Source: a virus
Direction: 5' to 3' (one strand)
DNA length: 28,562 nucleotides
IMG/VR virus record: IMGVR_UViG_3300004097_000037
Span: 1-28,562 of that record
Positions 7,549 through 18,742 of this stretch are shown one piece after another. Each line of letters starts with the position of its first letter. Position 1 is the stretch's first letter. Both the position numbers and the translations under genes were made by a program. The notes under the pieces are model-generated. The model was not told the DNA's origin, ran no database searches, and was given only the letters and a program-made list of their open reading frames with translations.

Positions 7549-8130
7549 TTATGATGCAATATCATTTAAGGTCGGTGCTGTTACACTTTCAGGTTTGTTA
7601 GTACTATCAGAACCCACAACCCAATCACTAAATGTGAACGTTGTATCAAATTCTAATACAGTATCAATTTGATCAGATCCCACGGTCATTTCACCAACAC
7701 CACTAACATAAACATTATGAAAAGTGTATTTTGCTGTTTCTACGCCCGCACTATCTAACTGTGATACCGATAATTCACCCATAACACTTGACGGATTTCC
7801 AGAATGTTCATTGTTTTGGAAGTGATCACAAGCTTTTAACCATGCTACCATATCACGACGTAAGCCATGATCTTCTGTAGTGTAAAAAGTTAACGTCCAT
7901 GAATTTGTGTACGCTGTATCTCCCGGAAGTGGTAGCTTACGACCTTGTGCAAACAATTCAATCATCCCCAATGTTACTTCGGGAAAAGTTGCAGATTTGC
8001 ATAACACTGCCGCATTTTCTAACAAACTAGTAGTTGATATTGTGCTTGGAATAGAAAAATTAATTAGATACTTTGATGCTCTCGCACCACTACCTATAGC
8101 TGATTTCAATTCTGCAATTTTATTAGACAT
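7549..8130 (-). CDS. 19: Major tail tube protein, gp19-like
   Basis: A 193-aa protein. The frame stays open to 8475, but the ATG at 8128-8130 is chosen: it has AAGGAAA upstream, lies 35 bases past a late promoter, and the upstream extension is a K/L-rich shadow of the acidic repeat gene. The sequence shows the usual tube-protein layout: MSNKIAELKSAIGSG at the N-terminus, KSATFPEVTLG, then GRKLPLPGDTAYTNSWTLTF with DMVAWLKACD, and at the C-terminus YTFHNVYVSGVG and LEFDTTFTFSDW. T4 gp19 (163 aa) stacks as hexameric rings to form the inner tube. Of the four tube-fold genes in the window this one sits in the main virion operon and has a promoter and upstream terminator of its own, so it is the best candidate for the major tube. 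Confidence 0.85.
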   Translation of the reverse strand: MSNKIAELKSAIGSGARASKYLINFSIPSTISTTSLLENAAVLCKSATFPEVTLGMIELFAQGRKLPLPGDTAYTNSWTLTFYTTEDHGLRRDMVAWLKACDHFQNNEHSGNPSSVMGELSVSQLDSAGVETAKYTFHNVYVSGVGEMTVGSDQIDTVLEFDTTFTFSDWVVGSDSTNKPESVTAPTLNDIAS

Positions 8131-8154
8131 ATTATTTCCTTTGTTTATTGTTAT

Positions 8155-8168
8155 ATAACATATGTTAT
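8155..8168. repeat. 14-bp palindrome at the tube-gene promoter
   Basis: ATAACATATGTTAT is a perfect palindrome that overlaps the late promoter box by three bases and covers the expected transcription start of the tail tube gene. Confidence 0.7.
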
Positions 8169-8173
8169 TTATA
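8166..8173 (-). promoter_or_regulatory. T4-type late promoter for the tail tube gene
   Basis: Exact TATAAATA on the minus strand, 35 bases upstream of the tube ATG, between a terminator and the gene. Confidence 0.75.
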
Positions 8174-8197
8174 CAATATAAACAATTTTGTCTAATT

Positions 8198-8226
8198 AAA
8201 AAAAAAAGAGCCATAAGGCTCTTTTT
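8198..8226 (-). terminator. Rho-independent terminator after the acidic repeat gene
   Basis: On the minus strand AAAAAGAGCC and GGCTCTTTTT pair as a 10-bp stem (8217-8226 with 8203-8212) around a four-base loop, followed by more T residues. It lies 26 bases past the stop of the acidic repeat gene and before the tube promoter. Confidence 0.85.
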
Positions 8227-8251
8227 ATGATAAGAATTTTTTAAGTTAAAA

Positions 8252-8737
8252 TTATTTAACTTCTTCAGTTTCAGGCTCTTTAACTTCTTCAGTTTCAGGT
8301 TCTTCGGCTTCAGCTTCAGTTTCAGGCTCTTTAACTTCTTCAGTTTCAGGCTCTTCGGCTTCAGTTCCTTCAGCTTCAGTTTCAGGCTCTTTAACTTCTT
8401 CAGTTTCAGGTTCTTCGGCTTCAGTTCCTTCAGCTTCAGTTTCAGGCTCTTTAACTTCTTCAGCGACTTTTTCAACTTTTACAGCTTCAACCACATCTAA
8501 AATATATGTAGCACGATCTGAACCGTGACGATTATTTGTTAAAAGACTAATTTCAAATTCACCTAAAGCCGCGGGTTGAAATTCTAAAACCGCATCAGAC
8601 GAAATAAGTGAACCACACATACGCCATGTGTAATCTAAAGCATCTTTGATTTTCGGATCAAATTTGTTAACTTTACCTACAGTAAATTTTAAACGTTCGG
8701 TTTTGTTTTGGATTATCGGTAAAATGATTTTACGCAT
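8252..8737 (-). CDS. Virion-operon protein with acidic 20-aa tandem repeats
   Basis: A 161-aa protein whose ATG overlaps the end of the preceding gene by eight bases. Residues 1-90 form a compact-looking domain (LKFTVGKVNKFDPKIKDALD, LEFQPAALGEFEISLLTNNR, ATYILDVVEAV) that I do not recognise. From about 94 to the end it is almost only E, P, T, A, K and V in a 20-residue repeat, EVKEPETEAEGTEAEEPETE: two full copies, one lacking GTEA, and a partial copy. The tail should be unstructured and very negative. Position between small terminase and tail tube suggests a structural or assembly role, for example a neck, tail-completion or decoration protein, but none can be claimed. Repeat number may vary between relatives. 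Confidence 0.75.
   Translation of the reverse strand: MRKIILPIIQNKTERLKFTVGKVNKFDPKIKDALDYTWRMCGSLISSDAVLEFQPAALGEFEISLLTNNRHGSDRATYILDVVEAVKVEKVAEEVKEPETEAEGTEAEEPETEEVKEPETEAEGTEAEEPETEEVKEPETEAEAEEPETEEVKEPETEEVK
8261..8463 (-). repeat. 60-bp tandem repeat array inside the acidic gene
   Basis: A 60-base unit encoding 20 residues is present about 3.4 times; one copy has an in-frame 12-base deletion. Copies are nearly identical at the DNA level, which points to recent duplication. Another reading frame over the same bases is open and gives a K/L-rich peptide. Confidence 0.85.
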
Positions 8738-9305
8738 CGTTATCTCTCTTATTTTTGGTTAATGAATTTAATTGTTTTATAATATCTGTTGTATTTATCT
8801 CTTTTTCAGGTCTATCAGAATTATCAACACCGTTAATTTTGTCTTGAGTGTCATTAATTTTATCTAATTGAACTAAAATTGTAGATATTTCTTTGTACGT
8901 TTTAAGGTATAGATCCATATTTACAGCAACACTTTTATTGACATCCGCAAATGCACTAATTAACATTGCTTTATCTGCTAAACTTGTATCTTCATCAAAT
9001 GAAAGTATACTAAGTGTTACATTTGATATAATTCTACGGCCTTCATCAGCATTTGTTTTTAATGTATTTCTAACATACTTAAAATCTTCTACTAACATGT
9101 TTAAGTTTAACGCTTGACTGGGTGAAAGTAAAGACTTATCTTCATCAGTCGACACAACTTCACCAACTAATGATTCCAATTCCTCACTTTCAACATTCAT
9201 ATCGTCTATAACGTCAGCTTTACCTATAAAACTATTCGTGATATTATTCATTTTTTCAGCTAATTTCTCAGCTTTTGTTTTAATAGCTTCAGTTTCTATA
9301 CTCAT
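8730..9305 (-). CDS. 16: Probable small terminase subunit, gp16-like
   Basis: A 191-aa, mostly helical protein. The arrangement fits T4 gp16 (164 aa): an acidic N-terminal part, a central helical hairpin (LVEDFKYVRNTLKTNADEGR followed by a second helix with ADKAMLISAFADVNKSVAVN and MDLYLKTYKEISTIL), and a short C-terminal helix (TTDIIKQLNSL) after a polar linker. Gp16 rings stimulate the gp17 packaging motor and select DNA. The call is by pattern memory, without alignment. The large subunit is not in the window, so the two genes are separated here, unlike in T4. An alternative is another helical neck or assembly protein. Confidence 0.55.
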   Translation of the reverse strand: MSIETEAIKTKAEKLAEKMNNITNSFIGKADVIDDMNVESEELESLVGEVVSTDEDKSLLSPSQALNLNMLVEDFKYVRNTLKTNADEGRRIISNVTLSILSFDEDTSLADKAMLISAFADVNKSVAVNMDLYLKTYKEISTILVQLDKINDTQDKINGVDNSDRPEKEINTTDIIKQLNSLTKNKRDNDA

Positions 9306-9314
9306 AAATTTACC

Positions 9315-10040
9315 TTATGCAACATCTATTGGTGCGGGATCAGACCATTTATTTAATAAGTCTTCTTTTAACTGTTCAAGTTCCGCGGTTGCTTCATTTT
9401 TCATATCTGCGTAATTTATACGACTACCCCCGACTAATGGTGCATCAAATTTACCCGTAGTCGTACCCCATAAAAATTTGACTTTAGACGTACAATATGC
9501 TTTAATATATTCGTGATTGAAAATTAAATCACCTTCGTCATCTGCAATATATTCATACTCGTAATGTAATAGACAAGTATCATTACAATTTTGCATTAAC
9601 TGTAATACCTTTTTATGTGGGTTAAAATTGTAGTTCATATCATCGCCCAAAAATTTATCTAATATGCTTTGTGTAGCAGAAATAGACATAATACTTGGTA
9701 TAATTGAACCACCTACCGATCCAGTGAAATACTGTTCAGACCACAAATCAGGCACAAAATCCATACCAAATTGAGAATTAAAATTCATAAAGCTGTTACC
9801 ACCTCTAGAAATCTTAATGATATTCGTTATCGTATCGGGTAAAAGATATTCGCCCGCACCACCTAATTCTATAAACGCGACCGCCTCCAAATCGCCATAA
9901 GCAAATTCTGTGAAATGTTGGATCGCATCGTCGATAATTTGTTTAATGGTATCTTCATCAACTTCAATCCTAACCAATGGAAATCCCAATTGACGTTTGA
10001 TGTAATCGACCAACTTATCTTTAGTGTTAATTCTTGCCAT
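9315..10040 (-). CDS. 13: Neck / head-completion protein, gp13-like
   Basis: A 241-aa protein with AGAGGT upstream of its ATG. The N-terminus (LVDYIKRQLGFPLVRIEVDE, then a helix QIIDDAIQHFTEFAYGDLE) is the pattern found in T4-superfamily gp13-type neck proteins: a helix, an LG-P-V-ximEV turn, then a long D/E-rich helix ending in aromatic residues. Then comes the beta-rich middle (FIELGGAGEYLLPDTITNII), and a C-terminal helix beginning YIKAYCTSKVKFLWG and ending ELEQLKEDLLNKW. In T4, gp13 and gp14 close the filled head and receive the tail. Gp14 would be the main alternative. T4 gp13 is about 309 aa, so this version is shorter. Adjacent probable small terminase supports a head/neck role. Confidence 0.6.
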   Translation of the reverse strand: MARINTKDKLVDYIKRQLGFPLVRIEVDEDTIKQIIDDAIQHFTEFAYGDLEAVAFIELGGAGEYLLPDTITNIIKISRGGNSFMNFNSQFGMDFVPDLWSEQYFTGSVGGSIIPSIMSISATQSILDKFLGDDMNYNFNPHKKVLQLMQNCNDTCLLHYEYEYIADDEGDLIFNHEYIKAYCTSKVKFLWGTTTGKFDAPLVGGSRINYADMKNEATAELEQLKEDLLNKWSDPAPIDVA

Positions 10041-10052
10041 GTTCTTGACCTC

Positions 10053-12191
10053 TTATACTATATCTGAAAATAAATTTAAAACTCGGTCTGTACCTGAAAC
10101 ATCGTTATTAGAAGTCGCCTGATTTACGTTAGATACAGATAACGATTGAATTTGATTAGCAATTAAGTTAGTTTTGCCGATCTCGGTTTGTACATATTCG
10201 TTAGATATTGTATTTATAACATCAACTTTTTTATTTTTATTTGGAACCGCTTCAACTTGTTCATTAGGTTGCTTATCCGTTTTAGATGTGTTACCATCAT
10301 ATTCGGGATTATTAGCCTTTTTACTTTGCTCAATGAATTCTTGATTCATTTGCTCTAATGATTCATACTCCTTAATAGGCGTATAATTGTCTGGTTTAGA
10401 CGGCTTAACATCGTTATTCATTTGCTCTAATGATTCATACTTTTTAATGGTATTATCCACACCCATTGTATTATCGACATTTGTTTCATTATTTTCGTTA
10501 TGTAAATTAAATGCCTCTTGTATAGTGATACGTTTACCATCTTTATCTAGAACATACTGTACTTCTTTTTCAGAATTATCAGAGCTAGGCAATGGTGTAC
10601 CAGATTTATATTTAATTGCATCTTTAGCAAATGTTTTAAAGTAATTATTTGCTTTAATAGAAACTTTACTAAACGTATCTTTAACATCATTCAATTTGTC
10701 TGGATTTTCATCAAAAAATTTGATAGCATTATCACGCATCAATTTATTTTCGTTCTGTTCTTTAAGTTTTCTATTTTTGATTTTATCTTTCAATATCGAT
10801 ACCATCATTTTAGTATCATCACCAGAAAAATCATCTATTGCAATTACTTCACTCATTTGTTCTTCAGAGAGTGCTTTAAATTTTGTAAAATCAACATCAC
10901 TATTAAACACGGTGTTTTTAGTGATCACGTTCATGTTTTCGTAACGTTTAATGATAGTACTACGTTCACCACCAATAAAGTTGTTAATATTTTTAGTAAG
11001 TGAATCACTACCAATACCCAACGTTAATACTGAACTTAATGCTGACGCGGCTTTGTTTTGTGTAGTTACTTCATCTTCGTCAATACCTAAACTTTCACCC
11101 GCTTTTTGCCAACCGTTCGACGCATCCATTGCAGTCAATCCCGCAGTAACTACCCATCCCGCAATTGGTATTGCCATAGCCGCACCACGTGCCGCAGTTT
11201 TCAAAGCTACTGTTGATGCAATTTTAGCCGCTATTTTTTCACCACTCTTTTTAACTAATCCGCTTGCCATTTTACTAGTGGCTGTTACCGCGGCTTTAGC
11301 AACTTTAGCCCCTTTACTGGTTAATGATGATAGTGTTTTTAAAATGGTTTTTGCATGAGGCATTAATGTCTTTATAAAAGAAAACATACTTTTAAGACTT
11401 CTAAGCCCAACTTTACCAAGATATTTTAAAGTCGATACGGCACCTTTTGTTACCATTTTAGATAGGTATTTAACGGTTTTAAGTAACGCTCTAGTCGGTG
11501 AAAATTTTAATATTCTACCGAAAATCTTTTTCGCTAAAAAGCCCATAAATGAACCTGCTAACAGACTTTTTAACAGACCGCCTTTATTTTCATCCTTGTC
11601 TTTATCTTTATCTTTATCCTTGTCATCATCTTCATTTTGTGGTGAAGTTGTTGGGTTAGATGTATCTTGATTATCACTAGGTACAGGCAAATTAATACTT
11701 GTGTCTTGATCATCATGATTACTTTGATACATGCGAGTTAATACATCTAGAATTTTTGTATTAGTATTCAATATACCTGTTAATTTTGGCAAATCTTGAT
11801 CACGATTTTCTGTTACTTGTGCGATCGCTTTACTATCAACATCACTGATATTATTTTGAACTAATTCGATTTCTCTAGATTGTACCTCAATTTGAGTTTG
11901 TACAACTTCACTACTACTTTTAGATGATTTAACTTCTTTTTCGGTAGCTTTAACTTTATCAAGTTTTTGAGTATTTTCAAGTTGTTTTTGGCTATCAAGT
12001 TTTGCACGTTGATTGGCTATTTTACGTTCTTCTAAAGTCTCACGAATTTTTTCTGAACGGGCACTAGTCGATGGTGTATCAACTTCAGTGACTTGTCGAC
12101 CTCTAGCACGTTTAGGTGCAGAACTCAATGATTTTCTACCGCTACTTTTAGCTTTAGTGTTTTGTTTAATCTTTGCTTTACGGTTAGCCAT
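10053..12191 (-). CDS. Probable tail tape measure protein (gp29-like role)
   Basis: A 712-aa protein, the longest in the window, with AGAGGA before its ATG. The N-terminus is basic (to about 35), followed by K/Q/E-rich helical segments to 130 and a D/K run at 188-200. Hydrophobic and amphipathic stretches follow: LLKSLLAGSFMGFLAKKIF (206-224), repeated KYL/GLRSL helices, and an AARGAAMAIPIAGWVVTAGL membrane-like segment at 333-352. This build is usual for tape measures, which set tail length and may cross the inner membrane. Position supports it: two gp26-like proteins lie just upstream, where tape-measure chaperones sit in many tailed phages. The C-terminal third is polar, with a duplicated ESLEQMN motif. 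A different hub or ejected protein cannot be excluded. Confidence 0.55.
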   Translation of the reverse strand: MANRKAKIKQNTKAKSSGRKSLSSAPKRARGRQVTEVDTPSTSARSEKIRETLEERKIANQRAKLDSQKQLENTQKLDKVKATEKEVKSSKSSSEVVQTQIEVQSREIELVQNNISDVDSKAIAQVTENRDQDLPKLTGILNTNTKILDVLTRMYQSNHDDQDTSINLPVPSDNQDTSNPTTSPQNEDDDKDKDKDKDKDENKGGLLKSLLAGSFMGFLAKKIFGRILKFSPTRALLKTVKYLSKMVTKGAVSTLKYLGKVGLRSLKSMFSFIKTLMPHAKTILKTLSSLTSKGAKVAKAAVTATSKMASGLVKKSGEKIAAKIASTVALKTAARGAAMAIPIAGWVVTAGLTAMDASNGWQKAGESLGIDEDEVTTQNKAASALSSVLTLGIGSDSLTKNINNFIGGERSTIIKRYENMNVITKNTVFNSDVDFTKFKALSEEQMSEVIAIDDFSGDDTKMMVSILKDKIKNRKLKEQNENKLMRDNAIKFFDENPDKLNDVKDTFSKVSIKANNYFKTFAKDAIKYKSGTPLPSSDNSEKEVQYVLDKDGKRITIQEAFNLHNENNETNVDNTMGVDNTIKKYESLEQMNNDVKPSKPDNYTPIKEYESLEQMNQEFIEQSKKANNPEYDGNTSKTDKQPNEQVEAVPNKNKKVDVINTISNEYVQTEIGKTNLIANQIQSLSVSNVNQATSNNDVSGTDRVLNLFSDIV
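10344..10441 (-). repeat. 26-bp direct repeat pair, 72-bp period
   Basis: Two identical 26-base copies (10344-10369 and 10416-10441) inside the probable tape measure gene encode the repeated YESLEQMN motif. The 72-base spacing equals 24 codons, suggesting an in-frame duplication. Confidence 0.8.
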
Positions 12192-12201
12192 TACAAATCC
12201 T

Positions 12202-12963
12202 CTATTGACCCGATGTCTCTTTTCTGGTATTGTTTAACATACCGACAAATATAGTACGTTCAAACGGTATTAATGTATCTATATCTTGCTTACTATATTT
12301 TCCGAAATAAATCAAATCAGAATATGTTTTGTATATAGATTGGATCGTGTCTTCACTCATATTCTCAACAATAAAATTATCACTAAGATTGATAGGAACA
12401 TGATTACCACATTGACAATATCCGATTATATTAGACTTAAACTTAATCGTTTTAGTCTCAATTTCGTCATAAATATCTTCAAATTCTATAGCATCCATAT
12501 TATCTATAATATCAGTCGAAACTTTCGAACCGTCATGAATTCGTAAATAATCTTCTATATCGATTGATTTATCTGTTAAATCATTGTATTGTTCTACTAT
12601 AGAAAAATTAGGATATTTTTTAGGTTTATGGTCAACATTGATTTTATTTGTGAAAAAATCATCGACCTTAGCTAATGTATTATTTACAGCATGACATTTA
12701 TTGCACGTGAAATTGAAACTAATATCATCACCTAGTGACAATTCTCGACATTTTAATAAAATTATACGTTTTTCGTATCGTGTGAAATTGGCTATAGTTT
12801 CTTTATCATAGCCAATTATCAATAACGCCTCATCTAAAATATCAAAATTCACGTGTTCGACATCCTGCATCAACATAACAAGTATTGCTTTTTCTTGTTT
12901 AGTTGTATACTGTGACACTTCAATTTCTTTAAAGCCATATATCGAACCGTATTTAAATTTCAT
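12202..12963 (-). CDS. gp26-like baseplate hub/assembly protein, second copy, zinc-binding
   Basis: A 253-aa protein whose ATG directly follows the stop of the first gp26-like gene; no strong ribosome site is seen, so translational coupling is likely. It shares that gene's layout: an N-terminal helical part (QEKAILVMLMQDVEHVNFD, YEKRIILLKCRELSLGDDIS), a Cys pair in TCNKC (87 and 90), an acidic helical centre, then a second Cys pair, here CQC (183 and 185), and a C-terminal helix. The four Cys could bind one zinc ion. T4 gp26 and gp51 are hub-assembly proteins, and Pfam T4_baseplate proteins of marine phages have similar Cys pairs. It may chaperone the tape measure encoded next. Family call is moderate. 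Confidence 0.55.
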   Translation of the reverse strand: MKFKYGSIYGFKEIEVSQYTTKQEKAILVMLMQDVEHVNFDILDEALLIIGYDKETIANFTRYEKRIILLKCRELSLGDDISFNFTCNKCHAVNNTLAKVDDFFTNKINVDHKPKKYPNFSIVEQYNDLTDKSIDIEDYLRIHDGSKVSTDIIDNMDAIEFEDIYDEIETKTIKFKSNIIGYCQCGNHVPINLSDNFIVENMSEDTIQSIYKTYSDLIYFGKYSKQDIDTLIPFERTIFVGMLNNTRKETSGQ

Positions 12964-13698
12964 TTATTCAGACCATGATTCTGGGAAAAACGCGGGAATA
13001 TCATCGACAACAACGTTCTCAACATGACCACAATTTGTACAAACAACACCGATAACGTTATCCAATTTGAAACGTTGTTTTTCCCATTGAGTAATAATAT
13101 CTTCAAAAAGATTGACATCAACACTATTAAATAGGCTGAATTTTTCTTCTGAAGTGTAAACGTGATCATTAATACTTTGTACGTGCTGTACTAAGTCAAC
13201 GAATAATGCTTCAAATTCTGATTCAGCTTTTGCCAAATAATCGTCATATACGTCTTGAGATTTAATGCGCCCCATTTTAAAACGTAATTTACCTTTACCA
13301 CTTTCTACGATAATTGTACTAAAGTTTTCACAGTCGGCTTTAACCGCTGTATTCAAATCTAGTTCAAACGTGAAAGTTTTTTCACATTTAGCACAATCTA
13401 ATGCCATTTCAACTTTATGACTAATACTTTTATTACGAATAGTTACAAGTAAAAATTGATATTCGTCTGGTGTTATTGGTGGTGCACCCTCTAAACAATC
13501 AATAACTAAACTTTGTCTGATACCCTTAACGATTTTTTCTTTTTCTTCAATAGAGTCGACTAATTCAATTTTAGCGGTGTACGCAAGATATTTCTTTTTA
13601 TCTTTAATTTTCCACGAACGATATTTGAAAACTTTATCACGAATACTTACTTCGTATGGGAATTCTTTTTGAATTAATTCATCTGTTTTGTTAGTCAT
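12964..13698 (-). CDS. 26: gp26-like baseplate hub protein (T4_baseplate family), zinc-ribbon type
   Basis: A 244-aa protein with GAGGA upstream. The N-terminal part (FPYEVSIRDKVFKYRSWKIK, then KKKYLAYTAKIE) and the helical centre with EYQFLLVTIRNKSIS are typical of the T4_baseplate (gp26) family. Cys pairs at DCAKC (102, 105) and CTNCG (220, 223) likely bind zinc. In T4, gp26 takes part in building the central hub of the baseplate; its presence in the mature particle is unclear. It is followed without gap by a second protein of the same layout, then by the probable tape measure, so the two may act as a hub or tape-measure chaperone pair. Which of the pair corresponds to gp26 and which to gp51 is not resolved. 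Confidence 0.6.
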   Translation of the reverse strand: MTNKTDELIQKEFPYEVSIRDKVFKYRSWKIKDKKKYLAYTAKIELVDSIEEKEKIVKGIRQSLVIDCLEGAPPITPDEYQFLLVTIRNKSISHKVEMALDCAKCEKTFTFELDLNTAVKADCENFSTIIVESGKGKLRFKMGRIKSQDVYDDYLAKAESEFEALFVDLVQHVQSINDHVYTSEEKFSLFNSVDVNLFEDIITQWEKQRFKLDNVIGVVCTNCGHVENVVVDDIPAFFPESWSE

Positions 13699-13712
13699 TA
13701 TGTGTCCTCAAC

Positions 13713-14237
13713 CTATTTTTTTATTACAGGTGACATTGATTTAAATTTTACGGTAAACTCAGAAACTTGAGCCTCATTATTATTATTTATATCGAGATTA
13801 GAAATGCCCTCAATAAAACAATCGTTTAACGTCATCAATTCAGTATTAACTTCACCTTCATAATCGGCCTCTTTAATGATGTTAATTATTGAGCAAGCAT
13901 CATCAAAATACCAACCCGCTTGAGATCTATATGCTGTTAAAAATTTTCTGTACAAGTACATCATATCATAATCTCGAAATGTTATTGAGAATCGATATAA
14001 TTCGTCTTTACCGTTATGAATCCTGTATTGCCCGCCTATATAAACTTCGATAGGTGAATTACTAAAATCAGGCGTGTTTATAGATACGATATGTTGATTA
14101 ATATCCCTACCCTCTACGTCATCAACCCAACCTATCAATTTACCCATTTCTGAAGAAAATGATATTTGTACTTGGTACGTATTCGACATAGACCATTTTT
14201 TATTTATAATTGCCGAAATATCTGTTGAAAAAGCCAT
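13713..14237 (-). CDS. Tail tube-fold protein, minus-strand paralogue
   Basis: A 174-aa protein with AAAGGT upstream and half of a two-way late promoter 28 bases before the ATG. It shows the tube-fold layout: an N-terminal strand (NTYQVQISFSSEMG), SINTPDFSNSPIEVYIGG, LYRFSITFRDYDMMYLYRKF, and the C-terminal pattern LNDCFIEGISNLDI followed by SEFTVKF. These match, segment by segment, the gp19-like gene and the two plus-strand tube-fold genes. It heads the main late operon, just before the gp26-like pair, so it may be a special tube ring near the hub or the tail end (tube initiator or terminator) rather than the bulk tube. Its exact role cannot be read from sequence. Confidence 0.6.
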   Translation of the reverse strand: MAFSTDISAIINKKWSMSNTYQVQISFSSEMGKLIGWVDDVEGRDINQHIVSINTPDFSNSPIEVYIGGQYRIHNGKDELYRFSITFRDYDMMYLYRKFLTAYRSQAGWYFDDACSIINIIKEADYEGEVNTELMTLNDCFIEGISNLDINNNNEAQVSEFTVKFKSMSPVIKK

Positions 14238-14265
14238 AATTTTACCTTTATTGATTATCTTTCTT

Positions 14266-14273
14266 TATTTATA
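14266..14273 (-). promoter_or_regulatory. T4-type late promoter, leftward half of a two-way promoter
   Basis: Exact TATAAATA on the minus strand, 28 bases before the ATG at 14237. It is the left part of the palindrome TATTTATAAATA (14266-14277) and shares four bases with the rightward promoter. It probably opens the long leftward virion operon. Confidence 0.8.
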
Positions 14274-14277
14274 AATA
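14270..14277 (+). promoter_or_regulatory. T4-type late promoter, rightward half of a two-way promoter
   Basis: Exact TATAAATA on the plus strand, continued as ATAC like the T4 consensus, 19 bases before the ATG at 14297. It overlaps the leftward box by four bases, so one palindrome serves both directions. Confidence 0.8.
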
Positions 14278-14296
14278 ATACATTTAAGGAATAATC

Positions 14297-15103
14297 ATGA
14301 GTTCAAATATACAGAATCTATTAGAGAAAAATTTAGGTGACGGTGGTAGAAGTACCAAATTTGATGCTATTTTTCAATTTACTTCTCAAAATCAGCCAGA
14401 TTCGGAATTTGTCGCGTCTTCAGTTAAAACTACGTCATTTCCGGGAAAGTCACATACCCCTATACACATAAAAATGGGCGGTCGACCTGTACCCGTTCGT
14501 GGTCATGTAAAGTATAGTCAAGAATGGTCGTGTACTTTTTACTTAACAGATAACCACGAATTGAAGAATGTATTCGAGTTGTGGCTTGAAGCACTTGATG
14601 AAAAACATCACTATAATGATAGTGTAGATGGTATGGACGCATTAATACAGCAACATAAATCTTATGGTTTTTATAGAGATATTAGTGTATACCAATTAAG
14701 TTTTGATGAGACTGAACAAATGTCAAAATATGAAATGCACAATGCTTTTCCTATTCGTATTTCGGAAGTTGATGTATCTTATGAGGGAACATCTAAAGTT
14801 TTAGAATTCACGGTAACTTTTGCGTTTACACATTATACGCATTCAGTAACTTCAGCGGATTCAGGTAATTTTTTAGATGGTATTATATCTAAGATACAAA
14901 GTAGTGTTAGTTCGACTATATCGAGTAATTTGACAGAATTCGCTAATCAACTTATATCAGGTGAAACGGTCGGTGATGTATCTAATATTTTTGCTAATGT
15001 AACGGGGTTATCTTCAGATACATCAACTTACAGTAAAATGTTTGATATGTTTAATACTGGTGGTGTGAATTCTGACAATATGCCTAATTCACTTAATAAA
15101 TAA
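14297..15103 (+). CDS. Tail tube-fold virion protein, plus-strand copy 1
   Basis: A 268-aa protein with TAAGGA upstream. Residues 20-195 follow the tube fold: STKFDAIFQFTSQNQ, TTSFPGKSHTPIHIKMGGRP, QEWSCTFYLTDNHELKNVFE with LWLEALDE, and then YEMHNAFPIRISEVDVSYEG with VLEFTVTFAFTHY. About 70 extra residues follow that are rich in S, T, N and G (for example SSVSSTISSNLTEFANQLIS) and carry no clear motif. It is larger than T4 gp19 (163 aa) and than the main tube gene here. It could be a minor tube ring, a tube-baseplate adapter or a decorated tube variant. Ten bases separate it from the next tube-fold gene, so the pair is cotranscribed. Confidence 0.65.
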   Translation: MSSNIQNLLEKNLGDGGRSTKFDAIFQFTSQNQPDSEFVASSVKTTSFPGKSHTPIHIKMGGRPVPVRGHVKYSQEWSCTFYLTDNHELKNVFELWLEALDEKHHYNDSVDGMDALIQQHKSYGFYRDISVYQLSFDETEQMSKYEMHNAFPIRISEVDVSYEGTSKVLEFTVTFAFTHYTHSVTSADSGNFLDGIISKIQSSVSSTISSNLTEFANQLISGETVGDVSNIFANVTGLSSDTSTYSKMFDMFNTGGVNSDNMPNSLNK

Positions 15104-15114
15104 GGTAGTAAAAT

Positions 15115-15822
15115 ATGAGTAAAACTATATCAGATCTTAAATCGTCAATAGGTGGCGGTTTAATGACAAATAAATATTTGGTTGAAATGACATCACCAAT
15201 ATTAACTATGGATGCTAATAAACTTAATATACTTTGTAATAAAGCTAGTTTTCCAGAAAGAACGATTGCAACAAATGAAATTTGGCGATACGGTCGTAAA
15301 TATGTTGTACGTGCTGAAACTACTTATAATGGTTCAATTACATTAGGATTCATAGATGACGATGAAGCGAATATTAGACAATTCTTTGACGCTTGGTTAA
15401 AGGTTGTTGATGATAGTGGTACATCAGCCGCGTTTGATCTATCGTCATATGAGGCCACTACGAGCGGCATTTTAGATATTGTAAGTAAATTGCAATCTGA
15501 TCCGTCGTCAATTGTACAAAGTTTACTAGATGATGATTTCGCGGATTCATTGGCTAGTTATCAGAATAGTTTTAATATTTGGGCGTTGAATAACAGTAAT
15601 GATAAGGTTTACGGTTACAAGTTACAAAACTGTTACCCAACTAGTATAAGTGGTGTAGATTTTAGCGACTCAGATTCTAATAAAGTGATGGAATTTACAG
15701 TAACATTTTCATATTCTGAATTTGAACCAATCAAAGATACTACTTTATTAGAAACAGTTGCGGATACGCTTATTGGTAATGTTGTTGATACCTCGATCAC
15801 TATGGAGGATATATTCGATTAA
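15115..15822 (+). CDS. Tail tube-fold virion protein, plus-strand copy 2
   Basis: A 235-aa protein with AAGGTAG upstream. It is the closest visible relative of the main tube protein: both begin with MS, then I-x-x-LKS-x-IG-x-G and KYL, and both have an LC-x-x-A-x-FPE segment, GRK, a TLxF strand and AWLK. The C-terminus has YKLQNCYPTSISGVDFSDSD and VMEFTVTFSYSEF. Between them is an insert of about 45 residues (SSYEATTSGILDIVSKLQSD) absent from the main tube protein. The similarity indicates duplication and divergence. The gene ends overlapping a convergent minus-strand gene by four bases. Role is inferred to be tube-related but specialised. Confidence 0.65.
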   Translation: MSKTISDLKSSIGGGLMTNKYLVEMTSPILTMDANKLNILCNKASFPERTIATNEIWRYGRKYVVRAETTYNGSITLGFIDDDEANIRQFFDAWLKVVDDSGTSAAFDLSSYEATTSGILDIVSKLQSDPSSIVQSLLDDDFADSLASYQNSFNIWALNNSNDKVYGYKLQNCYPTSISGVDFSDSDSNKVMEFTVTFSYSEFEPIKDTTLLETVADTLIGNVVDTSITMEDIFD

Positions 15823-16034
15823 ATAAACAATTCGGGGTGCTTATTTTGGTACTCCGATAATTTTTTTAATTCATATTCTTTATTATTTAAAGCATTTTGA
15901 TATTCAGCTAATTTCGTTCTATAAAAATCGGTATTTTTAGGGACGTTATCATATCCTTCAAAACACTCTATAACTAAATCCAATTGTTTTAACGACAATT
16001 GGATTATTTTTATATTTGTTTCTATTTCATTCAT
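15819..16034 (-). CDS. Small predicted coiled-coil protein of unknown function
   Basis: A 71-aa protein with AAGG before its ATG, starting two bases past the end of the 270-aa gene. The sequence is charged and helical with heptad-like Leu/Ile spacing (IKIIQLSLKQLDLVIECFEG, then EYQNALNNKEYELKKLSEYQ). I recognise no family. Its 3' end overlaps the convergent tube-fold gene by four bases. It is probably translated with the upstream gene. Confidence that it is coding comes from tight junctions, a good ribosome site and helix-like composition. Confidence 0.6.
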   Translation of the reverse strand: MNEIETNIKIIQLSLKQLDLVIECFEGYDNVPKNTDFYRTKLAEYQNALNNKEYELKKLSEYQNKHPELFI

Positions 16035-16036
16035 AC

Positions 16037-16849
16037 TTAAACCTTATCAACTTTAATGCGTAAAATATTTGTTTGGTTAACACCGTCATACACACCGTGT
16101 TCTTTAATACCAAAACTAATCACAACTTCTTCACCTAATTCTATATCTTGTGATGCTGAACCTTTATATGTTAACAATTCGCCAGATTCAGTTAAAAACT
16201 TCTTGATGTATGTATAACCATAAAATCCATCAAAACCAAAACTTTCAACACAACGAACAACTACTTTTTTCTGTCTAACACCAACTTGACCAAAGTAAAT
16301 ACCGTTACCTTTTTTGTCCATGAATTCCAATTCAGCCAATTCAGGGAAAAGTAATTCAAGTTTAGCACCTAATAATTTAATAGTAGCTGTTGCGTCATCT
16401 TGGCGACCGTATTTCATCCAGTATTTAGCCCAACTATCACCCTTTTCAGAATGAATTTTGATTAATGGGAAAGCTTTACTGTAACCAAAAGGGAATAAAC
16501 CTTCTTGAACAAGTTGAATTTCGTAATCAAGTGCTTGTTTTTGAGTAGTGCGGAATCCATCTTCAGCGATCGCTTGTTCATGAGCAGATTGAACATTTTC
16601 ATTTCGTGCGATTTCTTCTAATGAGAATTTAGGTTTTGAAACTGCATAACCCATTTCTTCAGCTTTTTCTTTAGCTTTATCAGCATCGATAGATAGGTTA
16701 CGCATATAGTAATCGCGCATAACTACGGCTTGAGAATAATTACCGTTACCGTCATGAAGTGATATAATTTCCTCGTATTGGTGACGTAAAGTGTACATTT
16801 TAGTTTCTTCGCCAGTACCGATGTAGAATTTAGAATATAGATTAGACAT
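16037..16849 (-). CDS. Unknown 270-aa protein with C-terminal OB-like HxxYxGxxQT motif
   Basis: The frame opens at 16903, but the ATG at 16849 is chosen because AAGGTGA lies just upstream and because the promoter and leader hairpin lie over the longer reading. The N-terminal half is helical and charged (HQYEEIISLHDGNGNYSQAV, SLEEIARNENVQSAHEQ). The C-terminal third (about 190-268) looks beta-rich: YFGQVGVRQKKVVVRCVESF, YGYTYIKKFLTESGELLTY, then FGIKEHGVYDGVNQTNILRI. The last segment matches a V-K-x-H-x-x-Y-x-G-x-x-Q-T-x-x-x-R ending that I have seen in many phage and plasmid proteins, usually without assigned function. It has its own sigma70-type promoter, so it may be made early, unlike the virion genes. 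Confidence 0.65.
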   Translation of the reverse strand: MSNLYSKFYIGTGEETKMYTLRHQYEEIISLHDGNGNYSQAVVMRDYYMRNLSIDADKAKEKAEEMGYAVSKPKFSLEEIARNENVQSAHEQAIAEDGFRTTQKQALDYEIQLVQEGLFPFGYSKAFPLIKIHSEKGDSWAKYWMKYGRQDDATATIKLLGAKLELLFPELAELEFMDKKGNGIYFGQVGVRQKKVVVRCVESFGFDGFYGYTYIKKFLTESGELLTYKGSASQDIELGEEVVISFGIKEHGVYDGVNQTNILRIKVDKV

Positions 16850-18565: not shown

Positions 18566-18742
18566 AATTATTACCTTTTTAATTGCCCGTTATTGGGTTG
18601 GTTTGGATGTTACGTTAACTATTAAATTTAGTCAAATATTATCGATAAATATTATCATTTAGTGGTTAAAATGGTGGTATTTCAACGATATAAATAGTAT
18701 TATACTGTATAACAATAATAATTGCAAAACTAAGGAAATATT
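18566..18742. promoter_or_regulatory. Divergent promoter region between ligase and A1-like genes
   Basis: Leftward promoters toward the ligase: TTGCAA (18722-18727) and TATAAT (18699-18704) with a 17-base spacer, and closer in TTGACT with 17 bases before TAACAT. Rightward: TATAAATA at 18689-18696, and TATACT at 18701-18706 with a poor -35. A direct repeat of GATAATATTT with 13-base period lies between them. Confidence 0.55.
18689..18696 (+). promoter_or_regulatory. TATAAATA box upstream of the A1-like gene
   Basis: Exact late-type box on the plus strand, 46 bases before the ATG. It overlaps the leftward promoter region, and an A1-like protein would be expected early, so real use as a late promoter is uncertain. 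Confidence 0.4.

Follow-up and report, generated by a model that had tools for sequence, protein, structure and literature searches.

How can two phage tail operons begin, back to back, at a single perfect palindrome of 12 bp, and what does the symmetry of that palindrome contribute? The question is raised by TATTTATAAATA, at positions 14266 to 14277 of a virus record of 28,562 bases that represents part of a T4-like phage and that we analysed at its full length (hereafter, the window). A first-pass annotation read the element as two overlapping divergent late promoters and suggested that it may act as a switch or balance between the two operons. Here we compare the locus with its counterparts in related phages, with other divergent gene pairs and with T4 itself, and argue that it is very probably a compact bidirectional late promoter of the T4 type, at which one polymerase would act on each DNA copy while both operons are expressed.

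Results

The palindrome, its two boxes and the flanking genes

The palindrome lies in a divergent intergenic gap of 59 bp (14238..14296), with a Shine-Dalgarno-like AAGG flanking it on each side. Its sequence resolves exactly, as had been claimed, into two T4-type late promoter boxes TATAAATA that overlap by four bases: a leftward box on the minus strand (14266..14273, read from 14273 to 14266) and a rightward box on the plus strand (14270..14277), with positions 14270-14273 common to both. We express this layout as an offset of +4, the start of the rightward box minus the start of the leftward box. Because TATAAATA opens with the self-complementary TATA, four bases can be shared and 12 positions are specified instead of 16. 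The leftward gene (13713-14237) has its ATG 28 nt beyond its box, and the rightward gene (14297-15103) 19 nt beyond; both values agree with those given earlier, and each box lies at late-promoter distance upstream of a late gene, the arrangement of a T4-type late promoter. With the box spanning -13 to -6, as a section of PMC1524935 describes for T4, the predicted RNA starts fall at about 14260 (leftward) and about 14283 (rightward), 23 bp apart. The gap holds no TATAAATA besides the two overlapping boxes, and both flanking genes are predicted to begin transcription units there.

The flanking genes had been described as tube-fold, and both do match tail-tube PHROGs. On the minus strand, 13713..14237 encodes a small tail-tube-like protein (phrog_25014, for which no function is given, E 1.2e-17; phrog_45, E 6.1e-8) and is the first gene of a leftward tail and baseplate operon. 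The remainder of that operon (8252..13698, minus strand), with four of its genes characterized by PHROG matches and read as one unit because the gaps are under 20 bp, would comprise two baseplate hub proteins (12964-13698 and 12202-12963), a protein of 712 aa that partly matches a tail injection transglycosylase (10053-12191), the head-tail adaptor Ad2 (9315-10040), and two further genes (8730-9305 and 8252-8737). On the plus strand lie two genes for gp19-like tail tube proteins (14297..15103, phrog_45, E 2.4e-30; 15115..15822, phrog_45, E 2.2e-35). Across the window, PHROG matches cover the major head protein, scaffold, head maturation protease, DNA end protector, tail tube, tube cap and hub proteins.

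Some further features of the window were recorded alongside. It carries three gp19-like tail tube paralogues, all phrog_45 (7549-8475, 14297-15103 and 15115-15822); the annotated Vibrio phages phiKT1024 and Va1 likewise have three, in a row. The TTG start listed for 7549-8475 is probably too early, since a late box at 8166-8173 precedes an internal ATG. The window's other divergent gap (18566-18742, between a DNA ligase and a DNA transfer protein) has a late box for just one of its two genes: it lies at 18689-18696 and precedes the rightward ATG by 46 nt.

Within the window TATAAATA occurs 15 times against a shuffle mean of 7.6, a count that none of 100 shuffles reached. Of these copies, nine sit 15-50 nt ahead of an ATG that has a Shine-Dalgarno site, a placement for which TATAAATA tops all 56 8-mers of the same composition (next best 4; median 0). 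The 12-mer itself, with one mismatch allowed, is found at two sites against 1.43 expected, which is no rarity, so the case for the element rests on placement and conservation; together these rule out a chance origin.

Conservation of the orthologous gap

Relatives of the locus were sought at several levels. Positions 12000-16500, used as a DNA-level query against the phage collection, gave nothing beyond a match of 270 bases, found in three Vibrio phages. Single-protein searches of IMG/VR with the right-hand protein returned two pattern-matched stretches, none of them confirmed, and with the window's capsid protein three loci; of these L015 comes nearest, with 86% capsid identity, and stops short of the palindrome site. 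A pattern scan of IMG/VR for CCTT-palindrome-AAGG, that is, with Shine-Dalgarno sites on both sides, found at least 119 stretches, from which 80 loci were analysed. In 27 of the 80 the element is flanked by divergent ORFs that each have a Shine-Dalgarno site. The control palindrome TATATTAATATA, with 80 loci analysed out of 114 stretches in total, is so flanked in 7 of 80 (Fisher P 1.8e-4), and six of those seven control cases have near-identical geometry of 37-50 nt and look like one family. Under a looser first criterion, applied with no control, the count had been 38 of 80.

The main comparison came from an IMG/VR scan with a tube-protein alignment, which recruited 80 loci regardless of their promoters; with the window added, the sample comprised 81. 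A relative of the leftward gene is divergent to the tube gene in 41 of the 81. Both exact boxes are conserved in this same gene pair in 38 of the 41 orthologous gaps, and the exact palindrome is found in 19; on the proposed check of whether relatives keep the palindrome, the pair of boxes is kept far more widely than the palindrome as such. Neither exact box occurs in the gap of three near-identical loci among the 41 (L377-L379). Once near-copies were removed, 29 gaps were left, 28 with both boxes and 12 with the palindrome. The sequences flanking these 12 palindromes share 37% pairwise identity, a value that we regard as barely exceeding background for DNA so rich in A/T, and in the alignments the relatives of the left and right proteins are 25-49% and 28-41% identical to those of the window, respectively. 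The protein alignments include Vibrio and Campylobacter phages without the adjacent pair; in the annotated relatives phiKT1024 and Va1 the two genes of the tube pair are not side by side.

Among the 28 non-redundant gaps with both boxes, the offset is +4 in 12, +6 in two, 11 in one, 18-21 in nine, 35 in one and negative in three. Thus 16 of the 28 lack the palindrome and retain two intact boxes. That the boxes usually survive at other spacings after the palindrome is lost indicates that it is the boxes, not the symmetry, that are conserved. Mapped on a tree built from the two proteins, the +4 layout requires nine changes and the 18-21 layout six; well-supported branches force at least six and four of these, respectively. 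The 18-21 layout, which corresponds to about two helical turns, occurs at L331-L335, L337, L338, L353 and L363, and its spacer sequences differ.

The frequency of overlap was set against a null that requires both boxes at usable distances and assumes independent bases, box-free gap composition and no kinship; its P values are rough, given that bases are not treated as linked and kinship is ignored. For the tube pair, the 12 overlaps among 28 compare with about 50% under this null (an earlier null, with the boxes counted in the composition, gave 45%), so the overlap is not in excess. The 18-21 class, with nine of 28 observed, compares with 1.6% under the null, kinship ignored.

Recurrence at other divergent gene pairs

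A second sample, recruited by the major capsid protein and overlapping the tube sample, comprised 82 loci and 816 kb. It contains eight copies of the palindrome, and all six intergenic copies lie in divergent gaps, of which there are 33; the other 63 A/T-only 12-mer palindromes together have two copies in such gaps. Five of the six are at the orthologous tube pair, on contigs of the tube sample, and are thus not independent of it; the sixth (L254) is upstream of a portal gene.

Across T4, the Vibrio phages phiKT1024 and Va1, and the window, all seven copies sit in divergent gaps. In phiKT1024 these are three of three genomic copies (neck|head completion, neck|portal, and two hypothetical genes) and in Va1 two of two (neck|head completion and neck|portal), the gap between hypothetical genes carrying the palindrome in phiKT1024 alone. 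For the neck|portal pair, a portal-recruited scan yielded 74 usable sources; in 41 of them the gene upstream of the portal gene is divergent, and these reduce to 29 non-redundant gaps. The offset is +4 in 18 of these, +6 in two, 14 in one, 38 in two and 40 in one, and the exact box pair is absent from the remaining five of the 29. Here the overlap (18 of the 24 gaps with both boxes) exceeds the 39% expected under the null (P 0.00035, kinship ignored). On the neck|portal tree, the +4 layout accounts for seven changes, three of them forced.

A further 34 non-redundant divergent gaps of T4-like loci were surveyed. Both boxes were found in 10: at +4 in four, at +26 in one and face-to-face in five. 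Face-to-face boxes with offsets of -15 to -21 were seen in short divergent gaps at L013:11339-11385 (T4 genes 4|53), L274, L276 and L385, a geometry in which the predicted RNA starts would nearly coincide, only a few bases apart.

A precedent in T4

The closest counterpart is in T4 itself. A 1989 Virology paper by Scarlato and colleagues reportedly names, in its title, overlapping promoters that direct divergent transcription in a T4 base plate gene cluster. A literature search on overlapping, divergent, bidirectional or back-to-back late promoters found no paper in the collection searched, and that T4 study was not among its results. In GenBank M77695 (T4 genes 25, 26 and uvsY), the annotated TATA boxes of gene 26 and gene 51 overlap at exactly this 12-mer, and the element of the window therefore belongs to a kind already known. 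The two sites have in common the 12-mer, which has its sole T4 copy here, and opposite-strand late boxes that share bases between divergent late tail genes, in T4 across a divergent gap of 50 bp. They differ in the genes served: T4 has the hub gene 26 and the hub-assembly gene 51, whereas the window has a tube-like gene and the gp19-like tube genes.

For comparison of the 26|51 gap, 11 phages besides T4 were chosen among 40 matches listed of 1339 records, and two with gene 51 in another context were left out of the count. The exact palindrome is present in seven of the ten phages examined, T4 included. In the Aeromonas phages Aes508 and 44RR2.8t (L428 and L429) this gap is without TATAAATA and has a different common palindrome, TATTTAAATA, at the same place.

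Late-transcription machinery

No genes for gp55, gp33 or gp45 were seen among the proteins searched in the 28.6-kb window, which is a fragment. The search was extended to nine related records, those behind L002, L003, L004, L337, L361, L351, L381, L380 and L342. Relatives of gp55 (phrog_234) were present in seven of the nine, as were relatives of gp45 (phrog_223); gp33 (phrog_254) was detected in none, in a search run with no positive control. A late-transcription system of the T4 type is likely on this gene content. Box sequence and placement are those of the T4-type late promoter (TATAAATA at -13 to -6, served by gp55, gp33 and gp45), from which the locus differs in having two promoters fused by a 4-bp overlap and perhaps in gp33, for which those records gave no match.

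Discussion

Taken together, conservation at the orthologous site, recurrence at other divergent pairs and the T4 26|51 precedent support, at the level of sequence, the proposal of two overlapping divergent late promoters. We envisage that a gp55-type sigma factor with host RNA polymerase would read TATAAATA on either strand, and that each initiation would proceed either to the left, into the baseplate hub operon, or to the right, into the two tube genes. Two late polymerases probably could not bind at once, because the predicted starts are only 23 bp apart; mutual exclusion is therefore likely. With one polymerase at a time on each DNA copy and many replicated copies, both operons would still be expressed. 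Selection would act to preserve both boxes within a short gap between divergent genes, with the exact palindrome the easiest of several acceptable layouts. Economy accounts for the overlap in the tube pair, and in the portal pair the overlap may be favoured or inherited.

A parallel is offered by the bidirectional promoters of E. coli described by Warman, Grainger and colleagues, in which a short symmetric -10 region serves both strands. In the sections of that work cited here (PMC12825309), start spacings of 10, 18 and 23 bp are common, the last matching the spacing predicted in the window, and opposing polymerases cannot bind together. The E. coli system relies on sigma-70 and -35 elements, whereas the window would, by homology, use a gp55-type sigma with clamp activation and no -35 box.

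The alternative that survives best is a refinement of the compact bidirectional promoter and does not exclude it. The symmetric box would be directionless by itself, and the polymerase would fire according to the orientation in which gp45 is loaded, so that clamp polarity selects the direction. We regard this as possible and rather doubtful. Loaded sliding clamps do have two distinguishable orientations, according to part of PMC2988020, and gp45 relatives occur in most of the related records; however, the palindrome is flanked by different bases to its left and right, which may favour one direction, late infection probably supplies clamps of both polarities in plenty, and the literature search found no test on an overlapping promoter pair. 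Should polarity choose, the element would read the polarity of the local replication fork or nick, which would decide which operon is transcribed, and the overlapping (+4) and roughly two-turn (18-21) layouts of the tube pair may differ in their polarity behaviour.

It is less probable, and in our view unlikely, that the site is a dedicated switch or balance, with selection keeping the overlap specifically so as to hold the two operons at a fixed ratio through mutual exclusion. The E. coli work could be read in its favour, in that strong activation of one direction represses the other, yet the same part of PMC12825309 reports little competition at basal activity. The excess of overlap at neck|portal also points this way, but may reflect shared ancestry, as judged from the neck|portal tree. 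Against such a role, relatives of the tube pair swap the overlap for offsets of 6-21 (once 35) or for face-to-face boxes, the +4 layout is no commoner there than the null predicts, and it changes repeatedly on well-supported branches. Since the same element is present at unrelated gene pairs, it is not a regulator of these two operons in particular, and this part of the first-pass annotation is not supported.

Two other readings fare worse. That only one direction is real, the reverse box being a by-product of the TATA core, has the attraction that, with the self-complementary TATA in TATAAATA, a reverse box costs only four more matching bases; we consider it very unlikely and disfavour it, as both boxes persist once they no longer overlap and both genes start transcription units at a gap that offers no alternative TATAAATA. 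Least credible of all, despite the perfect dyad symmetry and the binding of T4 DsbA to A/T-rich sites overlapping two late promoters reported in part of PMC2988020, is that a dimeric DNA-binding regulator uses the palindrome as its operator and that no pair of promoter boxes is involved, because its loss leaves separate, intact boxes and divergent gaps show no enrichment for other A/T palindromes.

As a probable compact bidirectional late promoter, the element extends one T4 case to a recurring design, in which T4-like phages use the same 12 bp at several divergent gene pairs unrelated to one another, and the relatives of the window offer a natural series of box spacings. As the clamp that activates late transcription in T4 is oriented, symmetric promoters of this kind would provide a clean test of whether clamp polarity alone can choose the direction of transcription.
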